DNA of 64,000 nt from Zygnema cylindricum. Its lineage: Eukaryota; Streptophyta; Zygnematophyceae; Zygnematales; Zygnemataceae. Made by a program: the position numbers and the translations under genes. The stretch's first letter is position 1. Each line of letters begins with the position of its first letter. Below are positions 1,667 to 31,046 of this stretch, in pieces. The DNA is taken from positions 124,001-188,000 of the forward strand of contig JBBHKE010001697.1 in the NCBI GenBank assembly GCA_037447655.1, read 5' to 3'. The notes beneath the pieces are model-generated. The model was not told the origin of the DNA and ran no database searches. It saw nothing but the letters and a program-made list of their open reading frames with translations.

Positions 1667-4600
1667 CTAGTCACTTTTCAATTTTAATCCACAGTTTTCT
1701 CTGCAATAAATCAACTTAGGGGAAGGCACTGCTTTTGTCATCATGTCTGCAATCATTTCTCTATCAGTTTTATGAACCAGTTTAATAATTTTATTTTCTA
1801 CCTTCTCTTTGACAAAGCTTAGTCTAATATCCATATGTTTAGCTTTGAAGTGATGTTTCGGATTAGCTGCAATCGAGATAGCAGCTTGATTATCACAAAA
1901 AACATTTTGAGTTCCAGACTTCATGAACCCAAGTTCTTCAAGAAGAGATTTAACCCACATTAATTCTTTGGTGGCAGCACAGGAAGCCATGTATTCAGCC
2001 TCCATAGTGGACTGAGCAACTACTTTTTGTTGCTTGCTACTCCAACAACATGCACCGGATCCAATTTGCAACACATATCCAGTCGTACACCTCCTTAAAG
2101 GCACATCTCCATAACTAGCATCACTCCAAGTGGTGATGTCAGTGTGCTCCCCTCCCAAATGCAACCATAATTCCCTTGTCCCCACCAGATACCTCATCAC
2201 TCTTTTGGCAGCCTCCCAATCTCTCTTTCTTGGTTCATTTAGATTTCTACTAAGGACACCTACAGCTGCAGCTATATCCGGACGGGTACAGTTCATAAAA
2301 TAAATTAAACTGCCTACAATCTGCCGATAAGGGATATTTTCCATAAATTTTCTTTCTATCTCGTCCATCTCATCATTAATGATGAATATTCCTCCTTCTT
2401 CACTCCCCTCACTCACTTTCTTCAAATCCATGGGAGTAGTACATCCGTTTGCTTTCTCCATTTGAAATTTTTCTAGCATATTACCGATTGCTTCTTTTTG
2501 AGTGAGTCTTATAATTCTATTCCCTCTATCTCTCTCCATCTGAATTCCCAAAATGTACTTTGCTTCGCCAAGATCTTTCATATCAAAACTGCTTCTAAGA
2601 TCCCGTTTTAGTTTGTTAATTTTATCTAAGGACTTGCTTAAGACCAACAAATCATCCACATAAATAGCAATAAATATCACTCCATTCTCATCTTCAAATA
2701 AATATATAGAGTGATCTGAACTAATTCTGATATACCCCAAACCGGTCAGAAATTCGTCGAGCTTTATATTCCATTGTCGCGGGGCTTGCTTAAGCCCATA
2801 GAGTGATTTTATCAGTTTGCAAACTTTGTTTTCTTCCCCACTTTCCACGAATCCTTCCGGTTGCCTCATGTAAATTTCTTCTTCCAACTCTCCGTGCAAA
2901 AAGGCAGTTTTAATATCCATCTGGTGGATTTCCATATCCTCCGCTGCGGCTATACTTAAAAGGATTCTAACAGAAGGAAATCTGACTACAGGTGCAAAGG
3001 TTTCTTCGTAGTCTATCCCCTCTTTCTGTGTATAACCTTTTGCAACTAACCTAGCTTTGTACCTCTCAATGGTATTATCCGGGTTTAATTTAAGTTTAAA
3101 CACCCACTTACATCCGATCGGTTTTCGGTCCGGTGGACAATCTACCAACTCCCATGTATTGGCTTCCATAATAGAGGCCATTTCTTCATTTATAGCTCTG
3201 ATCCACCGGCTACTTTCTGGAGTGTTTATAGCCTCTAAGTATGTTTGAGGTTCATCTGGGTGAGACATCTTTGTGAGTTGGTTATTTGCTTGTCTTTCTT
3301 GAAGTCGTTTACTACTTCTTCTTCCCCCTTCAAAATCGGACGCCGGTATGGAAGGCATCCTTGGGTTTCTTTTTGGGAGATTTTCAGCTCCCCTATCTTC
3401 CAATTCTGGTGTCTCATCAAGTTCCTCATCGGTTTCCACTTCGTATTGTGGCGTTGCCTCGGATGTTGTCCTTTCCTCCTTCTCCTTTGGTAGATCTGCA
3501 GATTTTTCTTTTTCTCCCTCTTCCTTCTCTTCATTTTCAAAGTCAAAGTCAGAAAACTGATCCGTTTCAAATCTGATTTTGACTTCCTTATTATATTTGA
3601 ATGGATCAATGGACTTCTCTTCATTCATCACCACTATGTGTTTTACCAAAATTATATCTCTCTTTTTCAAGTCATACACTCGGTATCCTTTTGTGCTCTC
3701 ATCATATCCTACAAGATATCCTGGTTTCCCTCTTCCCTCTAACTTCCATTTAGTCTTATCGGAATCCAAACTGTAGACTTGACTTCCGAACACTCTCAAA
3801 CTAGACAAATCAGGCTTTCTTCCTGTCCACCTCTCATACGGAGTTTCCTCCTTATTTGCTGAAGTTAGGACTCTATTTTTGATGAAATTAGCATAGTTCA
3901 TAGACTCAGCCCAAAACTGCAGCCCTATCCTCTTATCACTTAACATACTTCTGGACATATCTCCTAAAGTTCTATTCACTCTTTGTGCTACTCCATTTTG
4001 TTCCGGATTATAGGGAACAGTTTTCTCATGATGAATTCCTTCTTCTTTAAGATATTCTTCAAAATCCCTTGAGGTGTATTCTTTCCCATTATCACTTCTT
4101 ATCTCTTTTATTGAGGTTTCATGTAGCTTTTCACTCCATACTTTATACTCTTTGAAACATCTTAATACCTCTGACTTATGTCTAAGAAAGTATACCTTCG
4201 TGTATCTAGACCAATCATCTGTGATAGTTAACATCCATCTTTTCCCCCCATGTGAGGCATACCTAGCAGGTCCCCAAACATCAGTGTGAACTAGATCTAA
4301 TACTTTCTCTCTCCTAAATGTGGTTGCCTTTGGAAATGGAAGTCTATGAATCTTCCCTTGGGCACATCCACTACAATCATCAAAGGTCTCATCATCTTCA
4401 AAAGTAATACCCTCCACTATTCCATTTTTCTTCATTTTCTTTAATCTATCTAGATGCACATGCCCCAACCTTTTATGCCAAAGCATCATCTCACTTGCAC
4501 ACGAGTAGAGAACACTCTTTTCATTGCAAAGTACAATTCTGAACATTCCTTGACTGCCCTTCTCAGCTATGAAATAAACCTCATTATCAAAGCTTGCTGT

Positions 4601-6079
4601 GAAGATTCCTTTCCTAGTTCCTGTTTCAAACTCCTTTTCATCTAGGACAGCTGTTGAGACTAGGTTCTTGCTAAGTTGTGGAATGTAAAGAACGTCTGAG
4701 AGTGTTACAATTGAGGCCTTTCCATCAACTAGAACCTTCAAGTCAACAGTTCCAACAAGACTTGTGGTTTCTACTCTACCGTCTCCGTACTCTATCTCAA
4801 CTGTTGGGATCTTTCTCAGTTTAGTGAACCACCGCTTATCTTTGCACATATGCATTGAAGCCCCTGAGTCTATGATCCACCCATCCTCGGGTGGATCCCT
4901 CTTACCTCCGAAAGCACACTTTTGTCTCCGTGGAATGTCGACATGCTTTTCAGTGTTTTTCGGATTAAGGAGAAGCTCCTCAAGCACCTCTTCAGGTTCA
5001 GTTTTTTCTTCCACTTCCTCATCAAGAACTTGAGTCAGGAAAGCCTTTTTCTTTCCTCCGTCCTTTGAGGTTCCTTGACCATCTTTCAGTCGAAGATCTG
5101 CAAGTCTGACACAATCTGCCATATAGTGTCCCGGTTTCTTGCAGAAGTGACATAATCCTCCTCGAGAAGTTCCTCTCCCCTGTCTATCAAATCTGCCACC
5201 TCCTTGTCCTCTTCCACCAAAGTTTCGATAAGGATCTTTCCCTCTCTCCTCATCACGCTTCCGCCAATCAGCTCCTGCAGACAATGCTTGAACACTTGGA
5301 CTCCCTCTCCTAAGCTCTATGGTGCTTTCTTTCACTAAAATCATTCCCACAGTGTCATCCCAATTCCAATTGCTATCTCCTATGTCCTGCAATCGGTTAA
5401 TGATATTCTCATACTCTTCAGGTAGTTTCATCATTAATGTGTTCACTCTTTGTCTCTCAGACCATGAGTTACCTGCACTCTCTAACTCTCCAAACAATGC
5501 TCCTAAATCATTGCAATAATTATCCATACTTCCTCCCTTATAAGTATAAGCTGCAATCTTATTTTCTGCCAACTGTTGCTGCTGCAATGATCCACTCTTA
5601 TATTTGTTAACTAGTGATATCCAAATCTGAGATGAAGATTTGACATGCATAAGGGGAATGGCAATGCCCTTTGCTACACTTTTAAGAATTAAGAGCTTAG
5701 CAACCTTGTCTTTGTAGTTCCACTTTTCATACTCTGATCTTTCGGTCTGAACCCTTGTCGTTGTTGCTGGTGGTGTTGCTGCCGGTATCGCCTTCGGCAA
5801 TGGTGTTACTTGAGTTGCAACTCTTTCCTTTTCTCCTTCCATGACAATCTCTTCTCCTTCCTCATCTTCATCCTCGGTGATGGTGGCAGCTGTTCTACCA
5901 ACTGTAGAGGCGGAGGTGCCAGAAAAACGTGTCCCTCCAAACCCAGGTGGAGGTGGGCATCGAATTTGTCCAGACACTATGCCCCATAAATGCTTCTCAA
6001 ATAGTTCTCCCTCCATCATCATTTCCCAATAAAGAAAGTCTGATCCATCAAATATGGGCAACCTAGAGGGTGGGCCCAT
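1667..6079 (-). CDS. copia Gag-Pol polyprotein, element A (intact frame)
   Basis: Uninterrupted 1470-residue Ty1/copia polyprotein. Order: Gag with a UBN2-like core (about residues 110-260), CCHC zinc knuckle CHFCKKPGHYMADC (about 309-322), aspartic protease with DSGAS (about 403), GAG-pre-integrase LWHKRLGH...CSGCAQGK, and integrase with D in VHTDVWG and D in IRSDNG. Reverse transcriptase has YVDDLLVLS (about 1140), and RNase H has WSDASYGD, TMEAEYMA, CDNQAA and KHMDIR. The ATG lies inside the primer-binding site and gives MGPPSR, as in the other family I elements. Oddity: the third integrase catalytic position, 36 residues after the second Asp, is Gln (VAQRVN) instead of the Glu seen in VAERLN of element C. 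Near-identical LTRs show that it inserted recently. It is the only intact long coding sequence in the window. Confidence 0.96.
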   Translation of the reverse strand: MGPPSRLPIFDGSDFLYWEMMMEGELFEKHLWGIVSGQIRCPPPPGFGGTRFSGTSASTVGRTAATITEDEDEEGEEIVMEGEKERVATQVTPLPKAIPAATPPATTTRVQTERSEYEKWNYKDKVAKLLILKSVAKGIAIPLMHVKSSSQIWISLVNKYKSGSLQQQQLAENKIAAYTYKGGSMDNYCNDLGALFGELESAGNSWSERQRVNTLMMKLPEEYENIINRLQDIGDSNWNWDDTVGMILVKESTIELRRGSPSVQALSAGADWRKRDEERGKDPYRNFGGRGQGGGRFDRQGRGTSRGGLCHFCKKPGHYMADCVRLADLRLKDGQGTSKDGGKKKAFLTQVLDEEVEEKTEPEEVLEELLLNPKNTEKHVDIPRRQKCAFGGKRDPPEDGWIIDSGASMHMCKDKRWFTKLRKIPTVEIEYGDGRVETTSLVGTVDLKVLVDGKASIVTLSDVLYIPQLSKNLVSTAVLDEKEFETGTRKGIFTASFDNEVYFIAEKGSQGMFRIVLCNEKSVLYSCASEMMLWHKRLGHVHLDRLKKMKKNGIVEGITFEDDETFDDCSGCAQGKIHRLPFPKATTFRREKVLDLVHTDVWGPARYASHGGKRWMLTITDDWSRYTKVYFLRHKSEVLRCFKEYKVWSEKLHETSIKEIRSDNGKEYTSRDFEEYLKEEGIHHEKTVPYNPEQNGVAQRVNRTLGDMSRSMLSDKRIGLQFWAESMNYANFIKNRVLTSANKEETPYERWTGRKPDLSSLRVFGSQVYSLDSDKTKWKLEGRGKPGYLVGYDESTKGYRVYDLKKRDIILVKHIVVMNEEKSIDPFKYNKEVKIRFETDQFSDFDFENEEKEEGEKEKSADLPKEKEERTTSEATPQYEVETDEELDETPELEDRGAENLPKRNPRMPSIPASDFEGGRRSSKRLQERQANNQLTKMSHPDEPQTYLEAINTPESSRWIRAINEEMASIMEANTWELVDCPPDRKPIGCKWVFKLKLNPDNTIERYKARLVAKGYTQKEGIDYEETFAPVVRFPSVRILLSIAAAEDMEIHQMDIKTAFLHGELEEEIYMRQPEGFVESGEENKVCKLIKSLYGLKQAPRQWNIKLDEFLTGLGYIRISSDHSIYLFEDENGVIFIAIYVDDLLVLSKSLDKINKLKRDLRSSFDMKDLGEAKYILGIQMERDRGNRIIRLTQKEAIGNMLEKFQMEKANGCTTPMDLKKVSEGSEEGGIFIINDEMDEIERKFMENIPYRQIVGSLIYFMNCTRPDIAAAVGVLSRNLNEPRKRDWEAAKRVMRYLVGTRELWLHLGGEHTDITTWSDASYGDVPLRRCTTGYVLQIGSGACCWSSKQQKVVAQSTMEAEYMASCAATKELMWVKSLLEELGFMKSGTQNVFCDNQAAISIAANPKHHFKAKHMDIRLSFVKEKVENKIIKLVHKTDREMIADMMTKAVPSPKLIYCRENCGLKLKSD

Positions 6080-6083
6080 AACC
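6071..6083 (-). other. primer-binding site of element A (half initiator tRNA-Met)
   Basis: Minus strand GGTTATGGGCCCA starts directly after the LTR terminal CA and runs on as CC. It is complementary to the anticodon stem-loop of plant initiator tRNA-Met (GGUGGGCCCAUAACC), not to a tRNA 3' end. Drosophila copia uses the same scheme, priming from a 5' half of tRNA-iMet. The ATG inside it (6077-6079) is the polyprotein start codon. Confidence 0.85.
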
Positions 6084-6969
6084 TGAAATTATGTGGTCTC
6101 CATTGACCCACAGAATGAGCAGCCTATGTAAAGCCTCTAGGATAATATTTGCCCCTTCTACTTTCCCGCTGAATAAGCGCCGCCCAGGCACACAAATATT
6201 CTGACCACTCTCACCCTTGTGAGGACAAGACTCCCCTGAGTCAAACGCAAAAAGAATCACTGAATTTGCTCACCCGAGCAGTAAGTTATGGCTGGTCAAA
6301 GATGACCTTTATAGTTACAAGCTCTCTTAGAGAGAGAGGTACCTAAATATTACTAAGTCTCGGTCTGCCTACTCACGACTACCTACTATTAAACCCTAGT
6401 CCAATAGGAACACTATAAAGTACAAGAAGGTACAATGGGCGATGTACTTATTGTACAACTATTGTACGACAAGGTCTACAAGGTGACACCTGTCATATCG
6501 GAAGCCATGGTTCCTCCTCCCATCTTCTCCGGTATCAAATAATGTGGCGCCACGTGGCACCGCGTGACGCTATATCCGTATGCCGCCGAAAAGCTCACTT
6601 CGCGTGGCGGCTATAATGCCGGCCGTCCGATCAAAACATATTTTACACGGTTCAGATTCGCGTACATGCAGAAATTGCTCATTTTGGTTAGTCTGCTGTT
6701 AATTAGCTGTTTCGTTAATATTTATATATTTATGAAACCCGTCACGTGTATCGTTTCGTAACGCCTTAATGGTTAAGGCGTTAGGCTACAAAGACTATAG
6801 AGGTCACAGGTTCAAATCTAGTACTAGGCACTATTTTAGCCAAAATACCCTTAACTGCAAAAACTGCCACTTTCTAAATATGGCGGCAGCCATGGCGCGC
6901 CTTTGATCCTCACTCTCTTTCTTTAAAACTAAAATAGGGAAGTGAACTATTAATTACCTCTTTTCAACT
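6084..6969 (-). repeat. 5' LTR of copia element A
   Basis: Same sequence as 768-1653 with about five substitutions. On the outer side the expected terminal A and duplicated target bases are missing: left flank ends in GATTC, right flank starts TCACTC directly after TTCAAC. A TATA-like ACTATAAAGG with a CTCTCT/AGAGAG hairpin beside it lies near 6303-6330 on the minus strand. Confidence 0.93.
6760..6832 (+). promoter_or_regulatory. antisense tRNA-like module in 5' LTR of A
   Basis: Second copy of the A-box/B-box-like module of 1444-1516, again on the strand opposite to the element. Confidence 0.5.
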
Positions 6970-9918: not shown

Positions 9919-9922
9919 CTGA

Positions 9923-11587
9923 TGTCGTGCATGTGTCAAACAACGTGAAGATGCATGCAATATCATCAGCTGTGCTCCACTTAAACCCAAACGATGAAAA
10001 TATATTGTGAATGAAATAAGACATGAAAGAGAAAAATGAATAAATATAACAACAGGCAAGGTGAAAGGAAAAGAAAGGTCAACAACTTAGCTGGTTATGG
10101 TTAGGTCGGTTTATTACTTAGCCGATAGATGACCACTAGGCCCCACGGTCTATTTATATTCCTTGCAGGAGTTATCTTTATCGAGAATAATCTGAATTTA
10201 TACTCAAATAAAATAAATCAAAGCATATACAACCGAGAAAGACAAATAAAAACTAAAAATGATAATATGCCCGACACTTATGAGGTTTGAGATAGCCAAA
10301 CTCAAAAGATGCGCATAAGCCAAATAGAAATAAATACATAATCTCAAGAAATAAAACAACAAATCAATAATCCCAACATGCAACTTCCACACTAATTAAA
10401 ATTCAGCAACAGCCGGGGAAAGAAGGTTGTGTTGTGAGATCGCGGTCGAAATCCACTCAAAAGGACGAGAAAAGTGAAGGGAAACCGTGTAGGTCTCGGC
10501 CGAAGCCGTATAGATAAATATGTAAGGCTTTACAATAAATAATGTAATGGAAAACTAGACGCTTCACGCAAAGGCAGAAAATCGCCTCTAAGCTGTCCGG
10601 ACAATTTTACAAATAAAAAGATGGCTGCAGAAAATCCTCAATACTGAAAATAAATAAAACGAATAATTCCTGCACTTGAAAATTGTGTGCAGGAAATGAT
10701 CCGAAATGAACTAAGTAACAAAAACTACATCTAGTGAAAACAAGCCAATCAGAGTACAACGTGCTATGTAAGTATTTACGTCTAGTTTGGATTTAGCCAA
10801 TAGGAAGCCGAAATCCTATGCCATACGTTACAGAATCTATAACCTACGGATTAAAACCCTTCCTATCTACATGTGAATGCGTGAACCTCCAAATGGAACA
10901 CGACTTAAAATGGTCCTATCACATCGCTTCGTCAAAACTGACAGCCGATTTGATTGTCACTTGCGTCGACGATCCAGATGTGATATTACGAAAATCGCAT
11001 ACTTTGTGTCGACGACGGAGATGTTACTCCACGCGAAATGATTAAAATTTGCTGTCGGCCAGGATTCAAGGGAATGAAAGCTTGTACGGTAGGACCGCTG
11101 ATACAGTCCACTTTGTCGTCGCGCGAATCCCGGAAAATGTAAGTCGTACGGTTGACGTTAAATGATCAAAGTTACCGTCGGCGAGAATCGCGGAAAATAT
11201 ATATAGTACGGTAAGTTTGTTTGTATTGACGTGAATTTGAACATGAGTCGCCGGCGGAAAATCCGGGAAATAAAAGCAGGTACGACAGGACCAGAGGTAC
11301 GGTCCAATTTGTGGCCGCGAGAATTTCAGTCAACGTAAGTCGTACTGTCGACGCGAAATAATCAAATCCACCGTTGGCGCGAATCGCGGAAAATATGCGT
11401 CGTATGGTAGGTCTGCGGGTACAATCCAAAATCGTCATCACGGGATTTGCGGGAAATATAGGTCGTACGTTAAACGTCGTATGGTCATGCGAAAACCAAA
11501 TAACACCCAAATACGAATTAGTGTGGGATGCCCGTCCTAACACCTAAATATAAACAATTAAAATGTCCGACGAGATGCGCCATGACA
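9923..11587 (-). repeat. 3' LTR of the gypsy element
   Basis: About 1665 bp, plus-strand TGTCGTGC to CATGACA. The part 10116-10870 matches 26139-26901 and the part 10871-11587 matches 33187-33906. The U3 side (about 11030-11480) is built of degenerate tandem units with a recurrent CGGAAAATAT...GTCGTACGGT pattern. There is no credible gene; a 123-codon open frame within it is a by-product of these repeats. Confidence 0.8.
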
Positions 11588-11589
11588 AC

Positions 11590-11780
11590 TGTCGTGCATG
11601 TGTGAAACAACTTGAAGATGCATGCAATATCATCAGCCGTGCTCCACTTTAACCAGACGATGAAAATATATTGTGAATGAAATAAGACATGAAAGAGAAA
11701 AATGAATAAATATAACAACGGCAAGGTGAAAGGAAAATGAAGGTCAACAACTTAGCTAGTTATGGTTAGGTCGGTTTATT
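11590..11780 (-). repeat. extra copy of the gypsy LTR terminal 191 bp
   Basis: Nearly the same as 9923-10115, the U5 end of the 3' LTR. It sits directly against the U3 start of the 3' LTR with only AC (plus strand) between, that is ...CGACA-GT-TGTCATG on the minus strand. This is a U5/U3 junction of the kind found in two-LTR circles. Only 15 bases separate it from the PHD-finger reading frame. Confidence 0.75.
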
Positions 11781-11795
11781 CCCCCGCATAGCTCT

Positions 11796-12141
11796 TTAGC
11801 CGGCAAAGAAGCTAGCCAACACGACCGGAAGCTCGCGACATCCGTGGCAAAACCAGTGACCATTTGGAACTGCCAACAATGGTGGCATCAAACACTCCAT
11901 GTGAAACCCCTGATTGAAATGATCACAAAGTAAAATGGTAGTTTCCCCGTCTGATCGATGACAAAAGGTACATGCCGTCGCCTTCGTAATCGGCATCCGC
12001 ATAGGATCCATATCGTGCGACAAATCTGGAAGTAACATTGAGCTCTCGAAAAGTTCGTGTGTCCGCTCCTTGTAATCCCAACATTTTGTTCGGATCCACT
12101 TCGATGATCTCTTGGATGTGTGCAGAAACATCAGTGTCCAA
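11796..12141 (-). pseudogene. gypsy Pol C-terminus with PHD finger
   Basis: A PHD-type zinc finger is read at 11838-11972: CTFC, LLCDHF, GFHMEC and GHWFCHGC. The spacing C-x2-C-x11-C-x2-(F)-x4-H-x2-C-x14-C-x2-C fits the C4HC3 pattern, with the fourth Cys replaced by Phe (TTC, one base from TGC). PHD fingers bind histone H3 tails in other proteins. The linker upstream reads best in another frame (FDTLDTDVSAHIQEIIEVD), so an indel separates it from the finger. It occupies the place where chromoviruses carry a chromodomain, so a role in targeting integration is plausible but inferred. Confidence 0.82.
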
Positions 12142-12170
12142 AGTGTCAAAAGATTGCCTACGAAGATAAA

Positions 12171-12238
12171 CCTATTCTCCCACCCGATAGGGCTTCTGTT
12201 GCGACCTATTCTCCCACCCGATAGGGCTTTTGTTGCGG
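12171..12238. repeat. 34-bp tandem duplication in the integrase linker
   Basis: Two adjacent 34-bp units (12171-12204 and 12205-12238) that differ at two bases. They fall between the integrase core and the PHD-finger linker and account for the frame change there. Probably a post-insertion mutation. Confidence 0.8.
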
Positions 12239-12239
12239 C

Positions 12240-13488
12240 CTGTAACTACCAATGCGAGTGGTGGCAAACCGAAGTGTGTCCCGATGCTGGTAATCTGGTT
12301 ACAAAAGCCATGGGCATTTCACGGGCAAAAAGCAAAGCACGTCGAGTGAGTTCTTCCAAAAAGATAGTGTCAGACATCACCGGAAGTGGAAAGCTTGCAG
12401 CTTTCTGAATATTGCGACCGAGCAACGGTTGTCGCCCAAATAAAACATAATACGGGCTGAAATTAGCCAGACTAGCCTAAACTGACATGCGATATCCCAT
12501 GGTAATGTAGCCGAGGGACTCTCAAACCGAAATGTGTTTCTCTAAGCAATGCTTACGCAAGGCACGCTTATATGTCTGAACTGCCATTTCAGCCAAGCCA
12601 TCGGCCTGGGGATGATCGCGACTAGTACGGCGATGATCGATGAGAGCCTCATCAAGCATCTCTTGAAATTCTCCCTGAAATTTTGTACCTTGATCCGTAA
12701 GGACCTCGGCTGGGGCACCGTATCTCATAAGGATATGTTCCTTAAAAGCTGCAGTGGTTAACTTAGCTGTCTTGTGAGGCGAGGCTACGACTTCTACCCA
12801 CTTACAAGAATTTTTGATCATAATCATGATGTATTGTTTCCCTTTACGTGAGATGGGAAAAGGTCCGGCCAGATCGACCGACCATCGATAGAATAAACCC
12901 CTAATAGGTAGAGGTTGGAGCATAGTCTGCCGGTTAGAAAAAGAAGTTCGGAGACGGTCACAGGTGGCACCCTTGTGCAGAATAGCAGTGACATTAGCTT
13001 GCATTCCTGACCACTAATACCGTGCCTGAACTAGACTTAACGTTCGCTTGGTACTGTAGTGACCAAGCTCAGTGTGAATCTGCTCAATGAGAGAAAGACG
13101 CTCGGTAGGCGGGGGAACATGCCTATGGCTTCCGTCTGCCAACAACCGAACTAAAGATCCCCCGAGGCAAAGGTAAATTTTGGCCCTCTTTATCACTCTG
13201 TCTTCTTCATCAAAGGTAGTGCCAGACTTGAAGGTCTTCGAGGATAGGAAAAGAATGAGAGGCCCATCACGCCAAGGATATGTGGCGGGACGGGGGTTTG
13301 GAATAGACGACAGGCAGTAAGTAAGATAACAACCCATTGACATGACGGGAACATCTTCGTCATCAAAATCTTGTCGAACTCCATTATGTTTCGTTCGGGG
13401 CAAGGGATTTCGGGAAATTCCATCTACGTTTAGACTAAGCAAACCGGGTCGGTGAATTATTTCAACGTCATATTCTTGTAAGATTAAA
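12240..13488 (-). pseudogene. gypsy integrase
   Basis: Retroviral-type integrase of a Ty3/gypsy element. The N-terminal zinc-binding region reads HTELGHYSTKRTLSLVQ, then a stop at the usual YW, then KGATCDR where the first Cys is lost. The catalytic core has WSVDLAGPF, VLTDQGTKFQ and DHPQADGLAEM, so all three acidic residues remain. The part after the core (NFSPYYVLFGRQPLLG) is typical for gypsy. Three or more in-frame stops (after HISV, after RMSV and after SHW) interrupt it. It shares one frame with the RT and the methyltransferase. Confidence 0.88.
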
Positions 13489-13490
13489 GC

Positions 13491-14726
13491 TCATCGGGCT
13501 AGCTTTTCGGAAAGCTTATCGTTCGTCATTAGCCAATATAAGGGCTGCTGGTCAGTTAAGAGTGTGAAAGGTTTTTCGTACAAATAATGGCGGAAGTGAA
13601 CGACTCCCCAAACCGCGGCTACACACTCTCCTTCGTAGCTACTATAATTTGATTCAGCTCGATTATTGCTTCTACTCGCGTAAAAAACTAAGTATTCATC
13701 TCCGCTCAACTCTCTTTCTGTCAAAATGGCAACGATTCCGGGTTTCCCAAAATCTGTTTGGAGACAAAAAGGGAGTTTCTGATTGGGAGGACGGAGAATT
13801 GGAGCTCTCGATAAAGTGGTTTTTAATTTTTGAAATGCGCAAATCTGATCAGGACCCCATATAAACGCCACTTCCTTCTTGAGAAGGTCGTTTAAAGGAG
13901 ATGCGATGGTGCTAAAATTAGTTACAAACCTGCGATAATAATTAGCAAGTCCGAGAAAGGCTTGCAGACTTGTGAGGTCCGTGGGAGCAGTCAATTTACT
14001 GATTGTCTCTACCTTTGCTTCGAGAGGAGTGATCCCCTCAGCCGAGATAAAATGGCCGAGGTAAGGCACTCCCTCGGCTCCAAAGGTGCATTTCGCTGGG
14101 TGACATTTTAATCTGACCTTTTTCAATTCAGTCAATACCCATTCGATGTGAGCAGCGTGCTCTTCGATAGTAGCCGAGGCAATGATAAGGTCATCGATGT
14201 AACATCTAGCAAACTTACAACCTCCAAGAACAAAGTCCATGACTTTTTGAAATACTGCCGGAGCATTTTTCAGTCGGAATGGCATTACGGCCCATTCCCA
14301 TCGGCCGTCGCTACCCCAAAAGGCAGTTTTATGCCGGTCTTTTTCCTCTATCTCAATTTGATTGAATCCTTGACGGAGGTCAAGGATACTAAAATACTTT
14401 GCTCCGCCTACATGATCAAATATTTCTTCGGTAACAGGCATGGGATGACGATCTTGAACCGTTCTAGCATTTAGTTCACGATAGTCACCACCCATTCGAC
14501 GTTCAGTAAAATTACCCTCGAAATCCTTTTTCCGAGGCATGACAGTGGGAGTTGCAAATGTGGAGTCTGACCGATAGATTAGGCCAGCTTCCTCTAGTTC
14601 AGCACATCGCTTGTCTACCATTTCCCATTCAGTTTCAAACAAACGATGTTTCGGTTTAAATATATGGCGGTCATCTTCGAAATCTATCGACATCTTATAA
14701 GAGGTGTGACGACCCAAATCATTCAT
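13491..14726 (-). pseudogene. gypsy reverse transcriptase and RNase H
   Basis: 411 open codons with the full RT order: GDYRELNART, FSILDLRQGFNQIEI, MPFRLKNAP (usual G is R), active site CYIDDLIIAS, LGHFISAEG and the connection SLQAFLGLANYYRRFV. RNase H follows with LQTDFGKPG, AESNYSSYEGE and LLTDQQPLYWLM. The open stretch is part of the longer pol frame, which continues upstream and downstream across single stop codons. Intact catalytic Asp pair suggests that the parent copy was active. Confidence 0.92.
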
Positions 14727-15119
14727 AAAAAAGGCAAAGGCATCGACATTTCGTAAAACTACGTCATTCAGTAACTCTTGTTCGGCCTTTGTTAGGTTGG
14801 TGCCGAATTTCCATTAAGGAGCATCAGAATTTTCGGTTGTCATAGCTTCCATAGCTTGTGCAAAGGCCAACTGCTCATCTGCGATAAGCGTTTGACCTAA
14901 ATCGTAAGCTATAGGTGTCTGTTTAATGCAATTAACCGAATGATTCCAACTACGTGTTGGAAAAGCAACACTCCAATGAGAAGTGGGTGGAATATGTATA
15001 GGACAAGTAGACTGGAGAGCCGTGTATGCGGGAATAGACGAGGACATGTGGCTAGGATTAAGGAAGTCGTAGATAGAGATCTCCAGGAGTGGTGGAATTG
15101 GAGAAGGAAAGAGGAAAAA
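14727..15119 (-). pseudogene. gypsy Pol linker between methyltransferase and RT
   Basis: Same frame as both neighbours. It reads from the end of the methyltransferase (FFLFPSPIPPLLEISIYDFL) through ADEQLAFAQAMEAM, a stop at 14814-14816, and on into the RT N-terminus (TKAEQELLNDVV). No known domain recognised in it. Confidence 0.6.
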
Positions 15120-16391
15120 TTAAAATGTGGTCCCTTGGAAAGTGGGACGGAAAGATTTTCTTAGTGATGCATTCCCCCCACCAGCTGGTTGAGAAGGATG
15201 TGCATGAGAGTAGCGACCGGCTGCAAACCCAAGACCTAGAACAAAAGACAAAGATTGAGGATCCATGACACGACCTAATAAAATGCATTTTTTACGTTCA
15301 ATAAGACCAAGAGCGGCCGTAGTGCCAGGAATAAAATGCATGAGGTGTTCTCGTTCTATAGAGGTACGCTCTTCGAGCTCACCAGTATGAATGTTTCCGA
15401 GCATGCTAGGACCGTCATTAGAGAATGCATGTGAATGTGGGAAAGAAACTAAGGTAGGAAGCACCTAGAGAGGTTGACCCAGGACATTGACACTGAAATT
15501 AGGGGGACAGTCCTTTTGAATGCAAGGCTGCACCTTATGGAAAGGAAGAAGGGCAGCCAGAATGTCTCTAAAAGGAGGACCAACTAACAAGTTGGCCTCA
15601 CAGAGTCTACCAATATTGATCAAGTTCGTCCATTTGGAGGGAACCCGGTGTGCTAGTGAACCATGGCGAGCCGCGTCAATAATAAGAGGCGAACCAATTA
15701 ATTGTTCAATCCGTTGATAATCAACCAAGACTGTAGGTCTTGGATCATTATAGGCTGCGACATTTTCCAAGATATACCGCATAGGATGATCTAAAGTTTG
15801 TAGAAAATGCATGATACGGATCAATTCAAAAAATTATTTGGTGAGGGGATCGGCAAATCCGAGACCTTTTCCGGCCCGAGACATTCCTTGGCACTCCCAT
15901 CCGCCAAAAACTAGATCGATTGGACCAATATCATATAAGTGATGGTTGCCCACAATCCGGATGTCTTGTGGGAGGGCGGTATGCATATGCTTGTATGCGG
16001 ATTTTGGTAAGAAATGCGGATATAGGGAATGCAACAGATTAGAATGATGTAATTGTGCTTTCCGTGCTAACGGATCAATCTCAACCGAATAATAAAATCG
16101 GATTAATAATTCATTCCGCAAACATGCAAGGAGGGAAGTGCCTATTCCAGTGAAAAGGTCCAAAATCACCAATCCATTTGGATGGGGTTTCAATTAGACC
16201 GGATTCCAATTAATGGGAAGAAACCCAGAAGAGTCTGTAGGGACTCGGATTGTGGGAGAGACCGGAGAGAGTTGAATTGAGAAGGTTTGGTTATAGATTC
16301 GGTCAAATTCCCTCGTATCTATAAGAAAACCTGGGTCACTGAAAATTTCTGGTAAGTAAGAACTATCGGGCAGAATTTCTTCAGGTGACAA
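15120..16391 (-). pseudogene. C5 cytosine DNA methyltransferase domain inside gypsy pol
   Basis: Minus-strand frame with the motifs of a DNA (cytosine-5) methyltransferase in standard order: motif I DLFTGIG, motif II VEIDPLARK, motif IV GGWECQGMSRAGKGLGF with the catalytic Cys (15891-15893), motif VI ILENVA, motif VIII AHRVPSKWTNL, and a IX/X-like end (EREHLMHFIPGTTAA, LLGRVMDPQSL). The enzyme would methylate cytosine in DNA using S-adenosylmethionine. Motif order is not circularly permuted, so it is not a plant DRM-type enzyme. About 350 residues make a complete catalytic domain. Breaks: three stops in the same frame (16194-16196, 15834-15836, 15465-15467), no frameshift. It sits between protease and RT. 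The residue before the catalytic Cys is Glu where Pro is usual. Confidence 0.9.
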
Positions 16392-16860
16392 TGAATGAAA
16401 TATTTCGGCCCCACCGAATTCCCTGAAAATGCAGGTATCGATGTGGCCGAATTTGCCATAATAGGCATGGGCTTCCTAGCGGAAATTAGCGAAATGCAGA
16501 TTTTGCGTTCCGGGAAGTTAGTGGGCCTATAAAAAAATGTCTGATCATGCATGTCAACACCAACCCCTACACGAAATATAACGTTTTGTCCCACTAGGCA
16601 TTCATAGTCGCTACATTTAGTGACTAGAGCGTGAACCGAGATTTCAGCAAAGTCTGTGGCCGTTCCGTTTTGGAACTTGAAAATAAGCGGTTCCTTAGTG
16701 ATACCTAGGACTCGTTCGGTTGTACCCGCTAATGTTAACAAGCGAGTAGAAGTGGATTGAAGCTTGGAAGGGAAGGGGCTATACCATTGATTAATAATGC
16801 ATCCTTGCCGTTATCCAAAAAACTGATGTGAGGATCATGGACTTTCGTTCCTCTATAGAA
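16392..16860 (-). pseudogene. gypsy aspartic protease and linker
   Basis: A retropepsin-like domain is pieced together from two frames: ISFLDNGKDALLI (an altered D-S-G active site, now DNG) and then LLTLAGTTERVLGITKEPL, SDYECLVGQN and FFYRP, the usual order of a gypsy protease. At least two indels separate the pieces. Near 16.5 kb the reading changes to the frame of the methyltransferase (QNLHFANFR, stop, EAHAYYGKFGHIDT), most simply explained by a one-base deletion. A programmed shift is a less likely alternative. Confidence 0.68.
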
Positions 16861-16882
16861 ATAGGTTGAATAGCAGCAAGAT

Positions 16883-17346: not shown

Positions 17347-18395
17347 TGTAGAAACTAATGGTTTTATTAGTATTTTCTAGGCCTGAAAAGAAATATAGAA
17401 GTCGAGGCAGTCTATCTCTAACTTCTCTCTCCAACTCTCAAACTTGTCGCAGTCACTGAGAAATTGGAGAGGAAGCTAGAGCCATGGCTACCTTGGCTAT
17501 CCTGAGGTTTACGGGAATTTTTTATTAGGGTTTATTTATTTAATTAAAAGGTATGTGCCGTCGGCAATATTTGATCCTTGTACCTTCCGGACGGCAGATA
17601 GGATATAGCCGGTAGCCTTAGCCGTTAAGTATAGCGGTAGTGTTACATAGCATATAGTTTGATATTTATTTAAATATGTATACATGCGATAAACCATTTA
17701 ACTGAAATGAATTACGGGATACATAGATCAAGTAATATATAATGTACGACTTACGGTACGGACAAAAATCAGTACCGCGCATTTGTTTCGTAAATGAAAC
17801 AAATACCGCGCATATATTTATTACGACTACGATTAAAGCCGAATTTAATTGGACGGCCGAGATTAGCGCCGAGATCGCGGAGGAAGATTTTGGCGGTTTG
17901 TGGCCATCGCCACATCGAATGACGCGTGGCGAAATTCCATTGGATTGTGGAATCTCCGAAGATTATGGCACCGAATCCGGATTTGACATGTGTCGACATT
18001 TTGGCCATGTCTTACAATGTACGTACATAAAGTACACTGGCATCTGTACTTTTGCGTACGGAACTCAATTCTGATTGGTTCCGTACATTAGTAGATAGAG
18101 TCTGTGAGAGAGATAGGACTTAGAAAAATTAGAAGATAGGACATCCTCTCCCAGAGAGCTTCTGTACAAAAGGTCAACTTTGACCCTCCATAACTTACTG
18201 CTCAGGGGAGCAAATTCAGAGATTCTTTTTGCTATCGACTCACGAGAGTCTTGCCTTCACAGGGGTGAAGTTGGTCAGAGTTTTTGTCTGCCAGGGTGGC
18301 AATTATTTTTGCTTAAACACAAAGGGGTTAGGATTATCCTAGAGGCTTCTTGGAAGCTGTCCACTCTGAGGACTTATGGAGGTCTCAGAGTTTCA
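17347..18395 (+). repeat. 5' LTR of copia element C
   Basis: Starts TGTAGAAAC, ends GAGTTTCA, then the PBS GGTTATGGGCCCACC. Differs from the 3' LTR at scattered bases (a few per cent by eye), so C is older than A. An antisense A-box/B-box-like module lies at about 17554-17638 (minus strand GGATCAAATATTG and GGCTAAGGCTACCGG). Confidence 0.92.
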
Positions 18396-18410
18396 GGTTA
18401 TGGGCCCACC
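18396..18410 (+). other. primer-binding site of element C
   Basis: GGTTATGGGCCCACC, complementary to the anticodon arm of initiator tRNA-Met; the ATG inside (18400-18402) starts the polyprotein. Confidence 0.85.
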
Positions 18411-21400
18411 CTCTAGGGTACCAATCTTTAATGGAACTGGCTTCATATACTGGGAAAGTATGATGATAGGAGCTCTATGCGAAAAAAGGTTTTGGGGGAT
18501 AGTGAGTGGACGATTGGGGCGTCCATCAAGTCTTTGAATTCCTCCAGGGTTTGGAGGAAGCAGATTCACTAGGAAAGGGGATTCACCTTCAACGGAGGAA
18601 ACAAATGAAGGAGAGGTGGTGGACAAAGGAAAGGAGAAGGAGGCGACCACACCAATAGCAACTAGTTTAGCATTCATGTCACCTATTCCGAGGAACGAGG
18701 AGAATGATACTGAAACCTGGGACTTCAACAATATGGCGGCAAAGCACTTCATCCTACGCCATCTCACTCAAGGACTTGCATGTCCTCATTTGCAGGTAGA
18801 AAGGGCATCTGATCTTTGGATGGCTCTTATAGAGATGTACCGAAGTGGTACGATTCAGCAACAACAGTTGGCTGATCAGAAAGTTAAGGAGTATGTATAC
18901 AAAGGGGGAAATATGTTGGATTTTTGCAATGAGCTTGCTACACTCTTCATGGAGCTAGAGAGTGCGGGAAAAATTTTTAGTGAAAAAGAAAAGGTTAACT
19001 GTTTACTAATGAAGTTACCTGATGAGTTCGAGAACATAGTCAACCGTGTGCAGGACTTGCCTGACTCAAGGTGGATATGGAACTCAGTGGTAGGGATGAT
19101 TCTCGTTCAAGAGAATACAATTGAGATCCAAAGGGGAGGAAAGAGTGGCCAAGCCTTGGCAACAGCGACTGATTGGAGGAACAGGGATTCCCGAAAACCG
19201 GTCGGAAACTATGGGGGTAGGGAGCAGAAAAAACAGATCGACGAGTTCGAACCAAGGGCTCCCAAAGGTTTATGTCATTTTTGTAAGAAACCGGGGCACT
19301 ATATGGCAGAGTGCACTAAGCTAACCGAGCTTCGGTTAAAGGAGGGGCAGACCGGTGGTACCTCGATAGGAAAGAAAAAGGCCCTTGTCACACAGGTACT
19401 TGAGGCGGAATCCGAGGACGAGGACGATGAGCTCCTTTTGGATGAGGAGTTGGAGGCGAAAAATGAGGTCGAAATTCCACGAAGGCAGAAATGTGCTTAC
19501 GGTGGATTGAAAGGTGAAGCAGGCTGGATTATAGATTCAGGTGCCTCAATGCACATGTGTTAGGATAGGCACGTGTTCACTAAGATAAGAAAGATTCCCA
19601 CCGTAGAGATAGAGTACGGGGATGGGAGGATAGTCACCACTACTCTTGTAGGATCGGTAGATCTTAAAGTGTTAGTAGAAGGAAAGACATCCATATTAAC
19701 ATTCTCCGATGTATTGTTTATTCCGGAGCTGAACAAAAACCTTATCTCTACATCAGTATTAGATGATAAGGGTTTTTTCACTAGCACTAGGGAAGGAGTC
19801 TTTACTGCTAGTTTTGAGGAGGATGTCTATTTCATTGCTGAGAAAGGTAGCCATGGGATGTTTAGGCTGGTTTTAAGTAATGAAAAGAAGAAACTTTATT
19901 ATGCTGGTGTTCATGATATTATGATGTGGCATAAGAGGCTTGGGCATGTGAATCTAGATAAGTTAAGAGAGATGAAAAAGATGGGAGTGGTGGAAGGGAT
20001 TCAGTTCAGTGAGAGTGATAATATAAGTGATTGTAGTGGGTGTGCTCAAGGTAAAGCACACAGATTACCCTTTCCTAAAACAGCCACCTACAAGGGAGAA
20101 AAACTTCTAGATCTAGTACACACAGATATTTGGGGACCGGCTAGAGTGCCCTCACCGGGGGGGAAGAGATTTATGATGACTATAACTGATGATTGGTCTC
20201 GGTATTCTTGGGTAAATTTTTTGAAAAACAAGTCAGAAGGTGAGGATTGTTTTAGACAATATAAAGCATGGATCGAAAAACTCCATGAAACTCCAATCAA
20301 GAGAATAAGGAGTGACAATGGTGGAGAGTATACTTCTAACCAGTTTGAGGATTTTCTGAGGGAAGATGGGGTCCAACACCAAAAGACAGTTCCAGAAAAT
20401 CCTGAACAGAATGGGGTAGCTGAAAGGTTAAATAGAACACTAAGTGATAGTGCTAAAAGTATGTTGTCGGATAAAAAGATAGGAAAAAGGTTTTGTGCAG
20501 AAGCAATGAACTGTGCTAATTACCTCAAGAATAGAGTTCTTACTTCAGCTATAAAAGATCAAACACCTTATGAGAGATGGACAGGCCGGAAACCAGACAT
20601 ATCTCACTTAAAGGTTTTCGGCAGTCAAGTATTCGGTCTAGATACTGATCGGTCCAATTGGAAGCTAGATCCTAAAGGAAAACCGGGATACATATTAGGA
20701 TATGATGAGGATGTTAAAAAATATAGAGTTTATAATCTAAAAAGGGAAGATATAATCTTAGTAAAGCATCTAGTAGTTATGGATGAAGGAAAATCTGTGG
20801 ATCCCTTTAAATATACGAAGCCAGTAAAAATCTGATTTGAGTTAGAAAATTCCGATGACTTTGAGCTTCCTAACTATCCAGGTTTTAGAGAAGATGACAT
20901 TCTTGCAGGTACAAATCAGACCGAAAAGGACTCGGTTGTGGAAACTCCAGTGACAACTCTACCCCAAGCGGAAGACGTGGTGGAAATTGATTCGGAATCA
21001 AGGGATAGGGGAGAAGCCGAGTTTGTTTGAAAGAATCCATGAGAACCATCTATTCCGGCTTCAGATTTTGAAGGGGGGAGGAGAAGTAGCAAAAGACTGC
21101 AAGAAAAACAGGTTAATAACAAGGTAACTAAACTATCTCATCAAGATGAACCTCAAACTTATGGAGAGGCGATGACTTGTCGAGAAAGAAACCGGTGGAA
21201 GACAGCCATCAATGAGGAGATGGCTTCAATCATGGCAGCCGATACTTGGGAGCTGGTGGACTGTCCACCTAACCGAAAACCAATCGGTTGTAAGTGGGTT
21301 TTCAAACTAAAACTGAACCGAGATAACACAATCGAGCGCTACAAGGCCAGATTAGTGGCAAAGGGATTTACACAAAAGGAAGGAATTGACTACGAGGAAA

Positions 21401-22734
21401 CCTTTGCCCCGGTGGTCAGATTTCCCTCCGTCCGCATACTTCTCAGTTTAGCAGCGGCGGAAGACATGGAAGTGCACCAGATGGACATCAAAACAGCCTT
21501 TTTGCATGGAGAATTGGAAGAGGAGATCTTCATGCGACAACCCGAAGGGTTTGTGGAAGAAGGAGAGGAGAGTAAGGTATGCCGGCTGATTAAATCTCTT
21601 TATGGTTTGAAACAGGCGCCTCGACAGTGGAATAAGAAGCTTGATGAGTTTCTTACCAGTCTAGGATATATTCGGATCAGCTCAGATCACTCAATCTATG
21701 TTTTCGAAGATGAGGAAGGTTTTATATTTATTGCAATTTATGTTGATGATTTGCTTGTTTTAAGTAAATCAATGGAAAAAATTAATAAACTCAAAACCGA
21801 TCTTAAGGGGGGATATGAAATGAAGGATATGGGGGAAGCAAAATATATTTTGGGAATTCAAGTAGAGAGAGACCAAAAAAGGAAAATTATAAGATTGACT
21901 CAAAAGGAAGCAATAGGGAACATGCTTGAAAAATTTCAAATGGATAAAGCTAATAGTTGTACAACTCCAATGGAGTTGAAGAAGGGAAGTGAGGGGAGTG
22001 AGGAAGAAGGAGTCATAGTCTTAGACGAGGAATTATCTCCTGATGAACAGAAAATCATGCAGACTATTCCTTACAGGCAAGTAGTGGGAAGTCTAATCTA
22101 TTTTATGAATTGTACCCGGCCGGATTTAGCTGCAGCTGTAGGAGTGCTGAGTAGAAGTCTAAATGCTCCCACTAAGAAGGATTGGGAGGCAGCTAAGAGA
22201 GTCCTTAGATACTTGGTAGGAACTAGAGATCTATGGTTGCATTTGGGTGGGGAGAATACTGACATCACTACTTGGAGTGATGCCAGTTATGGTGATGCTC
22301 CGATGAGGAGATGTACTTCTGGATATGTATTATATGTGGGTGATGGGGCTTGCTGTTGGAGTAGCAAACAGCAAAAGGTTATTGCTCAGTCCACCATGGA
22401 GGCTGAGTATATGGCCTCTTGCTCTGCTGTAAAAGAATTGATGTGGGTCAAGTCTTTGCTTGGTGAGCTTGGTCACCTTAAGAGTGGTGTGCAGAAAATA
22501 TTTTGTGATAATCAGGCAGCAATCGCTATTTCTGCCAATCCTAAACACCATTTTAAAGCCAAACACATGGACATCAGACTCATCTTTGTTAGAGAGAAAG
22601 TAGAAAACAAAATAATCAGTTTAGAGTACAGACCAGATAGTGAGATGGTAGCAGATATGATGACCAAACCTGTGCCTTCCCCTAAGTTAATTTTTTGCAG
22701 GGAGAAGTGTGGTCTGAAATTAAAGATTGACTAG
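18400..22734 (+). pseudogene. copia Gag-Pol polyprotein of element C (five stop codons)
   Basis: 1444 codons in a single frame, with five in-frame stops (18535, 19561, 20833, 21028, 21040) and no frameshift. Domains: MGPPSRVP start, Gag, zinc knuckle CHFCKKPGHYMAEC, protease WIIDSGASMHMC with the 19561 stop directly after, GAG-pre-integrase MWHKRLGHVNL, and integrase with VHTDIWGP, IRSDNGGEY and NGVAERLNRT (catalytic Glu present). Then RT with YVDDLLVLSK and RNase H with WSDASYGD, TMEAEYMA, FCDNQAAI and KHMDIR. The protein end (GLKLKID) is followed by AAGGGGAGT and the 3' LTR. Confidence 0.93.
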
Positions 22735-22747
22735 AAAATAAGGGGAG

Positions 22748-23796
22748 TGTAGAAACTAATGGTTTTATTAGTATTTTCTAGGTCTGAAAAGAAATATAGA
22801 AGTCGAGGCAGTCTATCTCTAACTTCTCTCTCCAACTCTCAAACTTGTCGCAGTCACTGAGAAATTGGAGAGGAAGCTAGAGCCATGGCTACCTTGGCTA
22901 TCCTGAGGTTTACGGGAATTTTATATTAGGGTTTATTTATTTAATTAAAAGGTATGTGCCGTCGGCAATATTTGATCCTTGTACCTTCCGGACGGCAGAT
23001 AGGATATAGCCAGTAGCCTTAGCCGTTAAGTATAGCGGTAGTGTTACATAGCATATAGTTTGATATTTATTTAAATATGTATACGTGCAATAAACCATTT
23101 AACTGAAATGAATTACGGGATACATAGATCCAGTTATATATAATGTACGACTTACGGTACGGACAAAAATCAGTACCGCGCATTTGTTTCGTAAATGAAA
23201 CAAATACCGCGCATGTATTTATTACGGCTACGATTAAAGCCGAATTTAATCGGACGGCCGGGATTAGCGCCGACATCGCGGAGGAAGATTTTGGCGGTTT
23301 GTGGCCATCGCTACATCGAATGACGCGTGGCGAAATTCCGTTGGATTGTGGAATTTCCGGAGATTATGGTACCGAATCCGGATTTGACATGTGTCGACAT
23401 TTTGGCCATGTCGTACAATGTCCGTACATAAAGTACACCGACATCTGTACTTTTGCGTACGGAACTCAATTCTGATTGGTTCCGTACATTAGTAGATAGA
23501 GTCTGTGAGAGAGATAGGACTTAGAAAAATTAGAAGATAGGACATCCTCTCCCAGAGAGCTTCTGTACAAAAGGTCAACTTTGACCCTCCATAACTTACT
23601 GCTCAGAGGAGCAAATTCAGAGATTCTTTTTGCTATCGACTCAAGGGAGTCTTGCCTTCACAGTGGTGAAGTTGGTTTGTGTTTTTGTCTGCCAGGGTGG
23701 TAGTTATTTTTGCTTAAACACAAAGGGGTCAGGATTATCCTAGAGGCTTCTTGGAAGCTGTCCACTCTGAGGACTTATGGAGGTCTCAGAGTTTCA
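22748..23796 (+). repeat. 3' LTR of copia element C
   Basis: 1049 bp, same length as the 5' LTR, follows AAGGGGAG. Carries the antisense tRNA-like module at about 22955-23039 and a GTAC-rich segment before a TGTACAAAAGG TATA-like site. Confidence 0.92.
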
Positions 23797-25250
23797 TCAC
23801 TCTCTTCGAGATACCCTAAGTGGAGTGGTGTCCTTCTCCGGTTTTTTAACCGGTTGAACCGGTTTGGCGAATCGAGCGGGAATGCCACCATTTTTAATTT
23901 GGCTCTGATAGGAAAATTTCGGGTTTTTTATATGACAAGGTTGGACGTAGTGTGCGGTTTGCTTGCAATGTGTACAGGTAACAATTTTGTCTAGACACAT
24001 TCGAGCATCATGCCCCGTCTTCCCACACCGGAAACATAAACAGTTTCCGAGAGCAACAGTTGGGGTTCCCATGGCTGGAACTTTAGGAGGCCAGTGGTTA
24101 GGACGAGGATTGTTCCATGGTGAACAATCGGTTCTTTCGGGACCGCTTTAGGACGGTTATGGGCTTCCCACCAATAATTTTGCATTTCGTATTCCACGGC
24201 ATGCTGGGCGGCTTGGTCGAAAGTGAACTTCAAGCCGTACGTTTAAGTCAGGTGACTCTGAATAAATTTCTTAGACTGACTCGGAAACTGTCCTACAAAT
24301 TTCGGGACAGCATCAGCATCCGATATTCAGTCCGCCTATGCTTCACGAAGAGCTTCCATACGAGCACGCTTGGCAGGGGCGGTCTCTCCTGACTTTTGTC
24401 GAAGTTCATTACCTCACGATCTTGGTCAGGGTTTTGCATACGGTATTTCGCTTGCAACATTTCAAACATGACAGAGAGCGGATCCAATATAGGGATCGTC
24501 ATTGCTGGTCGTGCTGGAATTCCAGCACGTGCGGCTATAACAAACTATTGGGGTATTTCCGCAACTGCTGCTGTAATAACATCGTCGTTGAGATCAACGA
24601 CTTCCGGGATAGCCGGTTGATAAGGAATTTCTGGTTGTCCTATAATAGCAAGACTCCCAGCGAACGTTGGAGAAAACTCCGTCATCGCAAGTAAAGAATC
24701 ATACTTGCGGGAATAAAGAGTAAGGGCTGAACTGCGGAGTTAACGGCCTAAAAGAGAGAAAGCGACCCGTAGGTCGAACTGATCTTGGTACCGAAATGCA
24801 AGATCACGCATTTCGGTATTGAACAACATTCATAAATGCGAAAAAAGTCATGGTGTCCTTCATTCCTGAAAAATAGAAATGAAGGCGCCCCCCTCCCTCG
24901 GATGTGGAAGCCAATTCCAATAATGGAATGCATGGGGATAAAAATGGATTGGTAATTTGTTGAATCGGAATTCGACCCTTCAAGGGAATTGTGGTCATAT
25001 TCCTTTTCGAAAAATGTGGAAGAGACTGATAATAAGGAAGATACCGAGGTGAGAGTAGATCGAAACGACGGGAAATTTGACCTGAGATATTTAGGACAGG
25101 ATGGTCCAAAAGACTAGATAAATCTGATGGTCCGAATTGCGTGGCCCTAAACGAGGCCGACGATCGGGTGGTTCCGACAGGACAATCAAGATTATCCCAA
25201 TCGGTGGGCAAAAAAAATGATAACACAAAATGATGACTAGGTAACAAAAT
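23797..25250 (-). pseudogene. gypsy Gag with two zinc knuckles
   Basis: Minus-strand Gag in several frames. The end carries two CCHC-type knuckles: CFRCGKTGHDARMC and CTHCKQTAHYVQPC. Upstream pieces (FTFDQAAQHAVEYEMQNYWW, and further up DLAFRYQDQFDLRVAF) belong to the capsid part. Stops and indels cut it at least four times. Gag binds and packages the element RNA. The 23797 end is the insertion point of copia C. Confidence 0.78.
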
Positions 25251-25590: not shown

Positions 25591-26138
25591 TGCAATGCTC
25601 AATACAAGTGGATTAACACTAATCCACTCCAAACACGATCCCTCTATACGATCAACCGACTACCTTAGCACGCGCCTGTACCCGCAAAGCATCGTGATAC
25701 TTACATAACACTCTTAGCAATCTGGTAATAGCCAAGGTTGAAATGCAGTTGTTTGCTTCAACCGAAGTTTTGCAGAGCTCCCAAGAACGGATCCGCTCCA
25801 CTAACTCCACTCCTTAGTGAAGTATGTCTCAAGGTGAGGAAACGATGCCCACTATATATAACAAAGAAAATGGGAAAAACAAAAACCAAATACTTAAGTT
25901 AGCGCAGTATATCGTTGGCCGAAAATTGGCCAATAAGATAAAATATCAACTAACAAGCAAATGGTAATTATGTATGAAAAGCTAGTTATAGATTTTTGTA
26001 GAAATGTATCTATAAATATATATTTTCGATTATTTTTAAAATCTTTTTTTTTGTTTTTCCTTAGATAAAAAGAAAACCGAAATTGAAATAAAAACAACAA
26101 GCGAGAAAAGAAAATACGACAATTTTCAAGTGCAGGAA
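25591..26138. other. gypsy leader next to 5' LTR, no gene
   Basis: AT-rich untranslated part; no open frame of interest. The U5 end and a clear primer-binding site expected next to the 5' LTR are absent: the terminal 190 bp seen in the 3' LTR are missing here, so this junction has suffered a deletion or replacement. Confidence 0.5.
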
Positions 26139-28959: not shown

Positions 28960-28980
28960 CATGTGAATGCGTGAACCTCT
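27881..28980 (+). repeat. near-identical 1.1-kb direct repeat, copy 1
   Basis: Almost base-identical to 32111-33208 (offset about 4230 bp), differing by only a few single-base length changes in G runs. It extends beyond the LTR end by about 20 bp of gypsy LTR sequence (CATGTGAATGCGTGAACCTC). Confidence 0.85.
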
Positions 28981-29304: not shown

Positions 29305-29327
29305 CTTTCGCATGTAACCGAAACTTA

Positions 29328-30764: not shown

Positions 30765-30790
30765 TAAAATCACCTCGCGAGGTGATTTTA
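30765..30790. repeat. perfect 26-bp palindrome
   Basis: TAAAATCACCTCG followed immediately by its reverse complement. Same arm sequence as the palindrome at 29560-29584. Confidence 0.85.
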
Positions 30791-31019: not shown

Positions 31020-31046
31020 CCTCACTTCTCGAATGGAGAAGTGAGG
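31020..31046. repeat. hairpin CCTCACTTCTC/GAGAAGTGAGG
   Basis: 11-bp perfect arms around GAATG. A half copy (CCTCACTTCTC) recurs near 31146. Confidence 0.75.

Follow-up and report, generated by a model that had tools for sequence, protein, structure and literature searches.

A dead Ty3/gypsy-type retrotransposon copy in Zygnema cylindricum with a DNMT3-like methyltransferase and a PHD finger in one pol frame

We describe a degraded Ty3/gypsy-type retrotransposon in a 64,000-nucleotide stretch of the Zygnema cylindricum genome (assembly GCA_037447655.1, contig JBBHKE010001697.1, positions 124,001 to 188,000; here called the window). The element occupies positions 9923 to 33906 of the window on the minus strand, including two later inserts, and its pol frame (16475-11799) encodes a DNMT3-like C5 methyltransferase, reverse transcriptase (RT)-RNase H, an integrase, and a C-terminal PHD finger. 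With a probability of about 0.5, we read it as a dead copy that worked like KnitGypsy-Dnmt3 of Klebsormidium nitens, a gypsy element described with a DNMT3 in pol and DIRS-like repeats (PMC5890265), with a PHD finger added at the C terminus of the integrase and with the replication cycle proposed below. An earlier note on this DNA had picked out a C5 methyltransferase and a PHD finger in one minus-strand gypsy pol, and both are present in this frame. The stretch marked in the note, 11796-16391, takes in only the pol part of the element.

The following parts of pol were recognized, listed in the sense direction.

16500-16870, minus strand: protease-like stretch in two frames, by eye only
15261-16160, minus strand: DNMT3-like C5 methyltransferase, motif I to X, with the motif IV Cys codon at about 15893
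14052-14504, minus strand: reverse transcriptase (RVT_1, 8.4e-27)
13494-13859, minus strand: RNase H (RT_RNaseH_2, 4.6e-26; RT_RNaseH, 1.7e-23)
12948-13115, minus strand: H2C2 zinc domain of the integrase (2.8e-10 with an X placed at a stop)
12609-12890, minus strand: DDE core (rve) of the integrase (1.1e-9)
11838-11972, minus strand: PHD finger with seven of eight zinc ligands, from the profile match and PDB alignments

The methyltransferase matched the DNA_methylase profile (PF00145) on a single stop-free 119-aa piece at 5.6e-5 and 23.2 bits (cutoff, 22 bits), and with two stops read as X the match rose to 9.8e-9 and 35.5 bits. Its closest relative in the PDB was DNMT3A (8e-9), followed by DRM2 (0.005), HaeIII (0.017), and HhaI (0.11). 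What we take to be motifs I, II, IV, VI, VIII, and X follow one another without rearrangement, and motif IV reads ECQ, versus PCN in DNMT3A. A single-sequence AlphaFold model of the domain was uninformative, with a mean predicted local distance difference test score (pLDDT) of 31.

The PHD finger matched PF00628 at 1.6e-8 and 34.8 bits (cutoff, 24 bits), so that both profiles on which the earlier note had proposed to check the domains were found above cutoff. PHF12 was its top PDB match (6.6e-14), and among the matches listed (60 of 90) were the fingers of KDM5, BAZ2A, DPF3, ATXR5, and ORC1B, which we take to be readers of H3 unmodified at K4. In the PDB alignments, the fourth zinc-ligand Cys is replaced by Phe. 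The finger lies directly after the integrase, in the position that the chromodomain occupies in chromoviruses, and no chromodomain was found in the C-terminal pieces of this decayed copy when both frames were scanned.

RVT_1, both RNase H models, and rve all scored above their Pfam cutoffs. The H2C2 domain scored 22.2 on the stop-free piece, below its cutoff of 25.5, and 40.6, above it, with X at the stops. Ty3 integrase was the best PDB match of the integrase (4.7e-8), and the domain order RT-RNase H-integrase, with rve and H2C2, is that of Ty3/gypsy elements. No tyrosine recombinase, which would mark a DIRS element, was found in the pieces scanned, an rve integrase standing in its place. The arrangement given in the earlier note, with the methyltransferase between protease and RT, held for the methyltransferase and RT by Pfam, but the protease had no Pfam match. 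Its PHD-type finger after the integrase was likewise borne out by PF00628, but with one zinc ligand lost and a change of frame before the domain.

The pol frame has far fewer stops than expected by chance: 10 internal stops over 1,559 codons, compared with an average of 70.5 and never fewer than 47 in 500 first-order Markov resamplings. The same procedure gave a mean of 14.3 and a minimum of 4 for the methyltransferase stretch, which has 2 stops in 357 codons, and a mean of 16.4 and a minimum of 6 for the integrase-PHD stretch, which has 3 in 405. Very probably, the frame was open, or nearly so, at the time of insertion. The 10 stops comprise four TAA, four TAG, and two TGA codons, and we rejected stop-codon reassignment because all three types are found in frame. 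Upstream of the PHD finger lie a 34-bp tandem duplication and a change of frame, and gag is broken into pieces across several frames. The copy is dead, because it has stops and frameshifts, has lost one zinc ligand of the PHD finger, and has two long terminal repeat (LTR) elements nested inside it. A tblastn search found no further copies of the pol pieces elsewhere in the window.

Self-comparison and reading of the junctions delimited the whole element, which without its two inserts is about 11.2 kb long. In the sense direction, its order is X (about 1.48 kb), leader, gag, protease-like stretch, methyltransferase, RT-RNase H, integrase, PHD finger, y (191 bp), X (1,472 bp), and y (193 bp). 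The parts outside pol are as follows.

33192-33906, minus strand: first part of the 5' repeat X, starting TGTCATG, 93% identical to the 3' copy
26904-33186, no strand assigned: later LTR insert inside the 5' X
26140-26903, minus strand: second part of the 5' repeat X, ending GGCTTAGT, 96% identical to the 3' copy
26695-26715, minus strand: proposed self-primer and putative transcript start within the 5' X, with one G-U against the primer site
26119-26139, minus strand: proposed primer-binding site immediately after the 5' X, the exact complement of 21 nt in the 3' X (10666-10686)
23802-24544, minus strand: what is left of gag, spread over several frames, with two CCHC-like knuckles seen by eye
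17347-23796, plus strand: copia element nested in gag, its LTRs 97% identical, flanked by CCACT and TCACT, which share 4 of 5 bases
11781-11785, minus strand: short polypurine tract GGGGG directly before the inner y, from junction reading
11590-11780, minus strand: inner repeat y, 191 bp, starting AATAAACC and ending ACGACA
11588-11589, minus strand: GT between the inner y and the 3' X, not present at the outer ends
10116-11587, minus strand: 3' repeat X, 1,472 bp, from self-comparison and junction reading
9923-10115, minus strand: outer repeat y, 193 bp, the outer 3' end of the element, from junction reading

The outer ends read TG...CA, and an exact 4-bp duplication, CTGA, flanks the element at 9919-9922 and 33907-33910, just outside the start of X and the end of y. 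An ordinary LTR retrotransposon has the same LTR at both outer ends; here the 5' end starts with X and the 3' end adds y. At the inner y/X boundary, the sequence is ACGACA-GT-TGTCATG, and the GT is missing from the outer ends. Aligned with each other, the two X copies show 80 differences in 1,480 sites and the two y copies 9 in 193, a similar divergence, as expected if both repeats became identical at insertion. In the insert within the 5' X, the right LTR is 94 to 99% identical to the left, which has an internal duplication of about 0.9 kb; CATGT, at 26899-26903 and 33187-33191, is taken as its flanking duplication because it fits the TG...CA ends. The zf-CCHC profile gave only 0.019, below cutoff, on the gag remnant. 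Inside X lie two 150-bp direct repeats, 75% alike (11070-11415), which the 5' copy also has.

Two signals bear on how such an order of repeats could arise. The 21-nt complement begins at the first base after the 5' X, where a primer-binding site belongs, and in 200 resamplings the longest match was 12. When the leader RNA was folded from the proposed start, 19 of the 21 pairs had probabilities of 0.92 to 1.0 and the end pairs 0.75 and 0.68, and none of 20 shuffled leaders folded as well. The second signal is the polypurine tract. Under the ordinary rules of LTR reverse transcription, the complementary DNA (cDNA) would have an LTR composed of y+X, since the polypurine tract precedes y and the primer site follows the 5' X.

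Based on these features, we propose the following cycle. Transcription would start inside the 5' X, and the first 21 nt of the transcript would fold back onto the site that follows X, where they would serve as the primer for reverse transcription in the manner of Tf1. With plus-strand synthesis starting at the polypurine tract before y, the cDNA would be an ordinary LTR product with y+X as its LTR. The methyltransferase, produced together with pol, could methylate this cDNA, and its ends may then join to form a two-LTR circle. The DDE integrase would spare the ends of the cDNA and instead cut one preformed y/X boundary (ACGACA-GT-TGTCATG) with a 2-nt stagger, leaving recessed CA-3' ends, the state that follows retroviral end processing. 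Insertion of the linear DNA opened at y/X would give X-coding-y-X-y and the 4-bp duplication; as far as this one copy allows us to infer, the integrated order is that of a two-LTR circle opened at one y/X boundary. The PHD finger, in place of the chromodomain, would guide the integrase to nucleosomes, most likely those with H3 unmodified at K4. Since the relatives named above presumably read H3 unmodified at K4, guidance to silent chromatin is expected, where a methylated copy would blend in. The suggestion of the earlier note that the element might mark its own copies or steer integration is likewise an inference.

The cycle extends to a more general claim, which we put forward tentatively: that there is a family in which a DDE integrase acts on the preformed LTR junction of a two-LTR circle, which leaves every inserted copy circularly permuted, and in which pol encodes a DNA-methylation writer together with a reader of the H3 tail. 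A real element would then use the retroviral "circle junction" route, which to our knowledge has long been set aside for retroviruses.

Several observations weigh against our reading of the element. It is based on a single copy, and one half of X has diverged more than the other (50 of 718 versus 30 of 762 sites, P = 0.014), contrary to what a single age would predict. A search upstream of the proposed transcript start gave no TATA box, and the leader fold is a consistency check only, because the complement itself was used to choose the 5' end of the RNA. With a run of 7 purines, the polypurine tract is short, and one further tract of its G5 type was present in the 7.4 kb searched. Decay or altered function may account both for the ECQ of motif IV and for the zinc ligand that the PHD finger lacks. 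Furthermore, when tested in yeast, the K. nitens DNMT domain produced no methylation, a result that its authors call inconclusive in the text available to us (PMC5890265).

Among the alternatives, a DIRS-like templated route is possible, if doubtful. Here the inner y-X unit would act as a splint, bringing the ends of the cDNA together into a circle, so that no LTR-type cDNA would need end-joining. The order of the repeats is that of DIRS-type elements, as stated for KnitGypsy-Dnmt3 in the part of the report consulted (PMC5890265), and the X/y join in our copy fits, with no base lost or added. However, the polypurine tract and the primer site lie exactly where an ordinary LTR product with y+X as its LTR requires them, and the copy has a DDE integrase, no tyrosine recombinase in the pieces scanned, and a 4-bp duplication.

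It is also conceivable, although unlikely, that the 21-nt complement forms a hairpin with a role in packaging, dimer formation, or regulation, and that a transfer RNA (tRNA) or some other primer was used. Besides the placement of the complement at the first base after X, the start of the site argues against this explanation: tRNA primer-binding sites are expected to start with TGG, and this one does not.

We regard it as improbable that the methyltransferase and the PHD finger are functionless passengers of the family or came together as a chimera in this copy alone. The altered motif IV and the lost zinc ligand would fit such an explanation, but the frame is open through both domains far beyond chance, and the ratio of nonsynonymous to synonymous substitution rates (Ka/Ks) given for the DNMT of KnitGypsy-Dnmt3 in the text consulted is below 0.2 (PMC5890265). 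More improbable still is that this copy gained its outer y by chance (through inter-copy recombination, gene conversion, or assembly error) in a family with ordinary LTRs: only one copy is at hand, in a repeat-rich region, but CTGA exactly bounds the start of X and the end of y, and the published relative has the same repeat order according to the text seen (PMC5890265).

Our preferred reading, of an element that worked like KnitGypsy-Dnmt3, draws on several published systems, each compared here as far as the text of its report was available. Like our element, KnitGypsy-Dnmt3 has gypsy-type domains, an unrearranged Dnmt3-type methyltransferase inside Pol, and a DIRS-like repeat order, and by this shared organization the two are probably kin; unlike our element, it has no PHD finger named in the main text (PMC5890265). 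The published account, in the same text, does not explain the repeats, self-priming, or a circle junction, although methylation of cDNA by a retrotransposon methyltransferase is already proposed there (PMC5890265). SymbioDIRS-Dnmt3 also combines a Dnmt3 in Pol with split repeats, and its domains were active in yeast tests; unlike our element, it has a tyrosine recombinase of DIRS type and belongs to a different retrotransposon class (PMC5890265). Chromoviruses share a chromatin-reader-type domain directly after the integrase, which is assumed to confer targeting preferences on gypsy elements (PMC6317226), whereas here a PHD finger replaces the chromodomain. The self-priming LTR elements Tf1 and Tj1 similarly have a primer site complementary to their own LTR, but their LTRs are ordinary, and the complement in our element is 21 nt (PMC4600332). 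A PHD finger C-terminal to a gypsy-like integrase core is described in Ginger1-9_HM, which, in contrast to our element, is a cut-and-paste DNA transposon with Ulp1 (PMC2836005). Finally, an orchid Ty3/gypsy element with an N6-methyladenosine (m6A) demethylase domain is likewise a gypsy capture of a nucleic-acid-modification domain, but it concerns an RNA demethylase in a flowering plant (PMC9289625).

The earlier note had offered the pairing as its main candidate for something new. Among the literature matches listed, with supplements and most subscription papers outside their scope, no gypsy element with both a methyltransferase and a PHD finger was found. The methyltransferase alone is not new, because a gypsy element with a DNMT3 in pol has been published (PMC5890265). 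In the text of a plant LTR survey, as far as it was available, DNA methyltransferase had no matches and PHD was absent (PMC6317226), and transposons encoding DNA methylases are described as absent from land plants in the part of another report that we saw (PMC6338049), a restriction that would favor an alga as host. Thus, K. nitens had already provided both a gypsy Pol with a methyltransferase and this order of repeats, while the PHD finger in the chromodomain position, its pairing with the methyltransferase, and the circle idea look new. The short polypurine tract before y and the 21-nt self-complement after the 5' X are newly described here.

We also looked for relatives outside this genome. 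In viral contigs, 2, 4, and 1 stretches fit the search patterns and none passed tblastn, and in prokaryote genomes none of 11 stretches passed. Two scans with methyltransferase signatures gave 18 loci, none of which looked methyltransferase-like, by eye, in the frames around the matches. As general background, proteins that join an integrase to a PHD finger probably occur among unannotated green-algal sequences.

In the rest of the window, every family found in ten other open reading frames (ORFs) was copia or retroviral, and two ORFs had no family, so that no host gene was recognized among them. A copia gag-pol on the minus strand, apparently young, is open over 1,473 codons (1670-6088). Two tandem arrays of one 23-bp unit lie about 3.4 kb apart (53552-53617 and 56908-56973). 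No tRNA and no Rfam match was found in the window. In Zygnema cf. cylindricum SAG 698-1a, Copia elements make up 29.8% of the genome, and the PHD family is at least 9-fold larger than in other Zygnema strains, according to the text consulted (PMC9915684).

PHD-bearing retrotransposons could be a cause of this PHD expansion in SAG 698-1a, and more generally such elements could inflate the counts of PHD regulators in algal genomes. With the bounded y/X repeats, the polypurine tract, and the self-complementary primer site, the DIRS-like ends of KnitGypsy-Dnmt3 can be recast as a testable model in which integration proceeds from a circle. Because a single mobile element combines an enzyme of DNA methylation with a domain of the histone-reader type, the idea that such an element would both mark itself and target its integration becomes testable in intact relatives as well.

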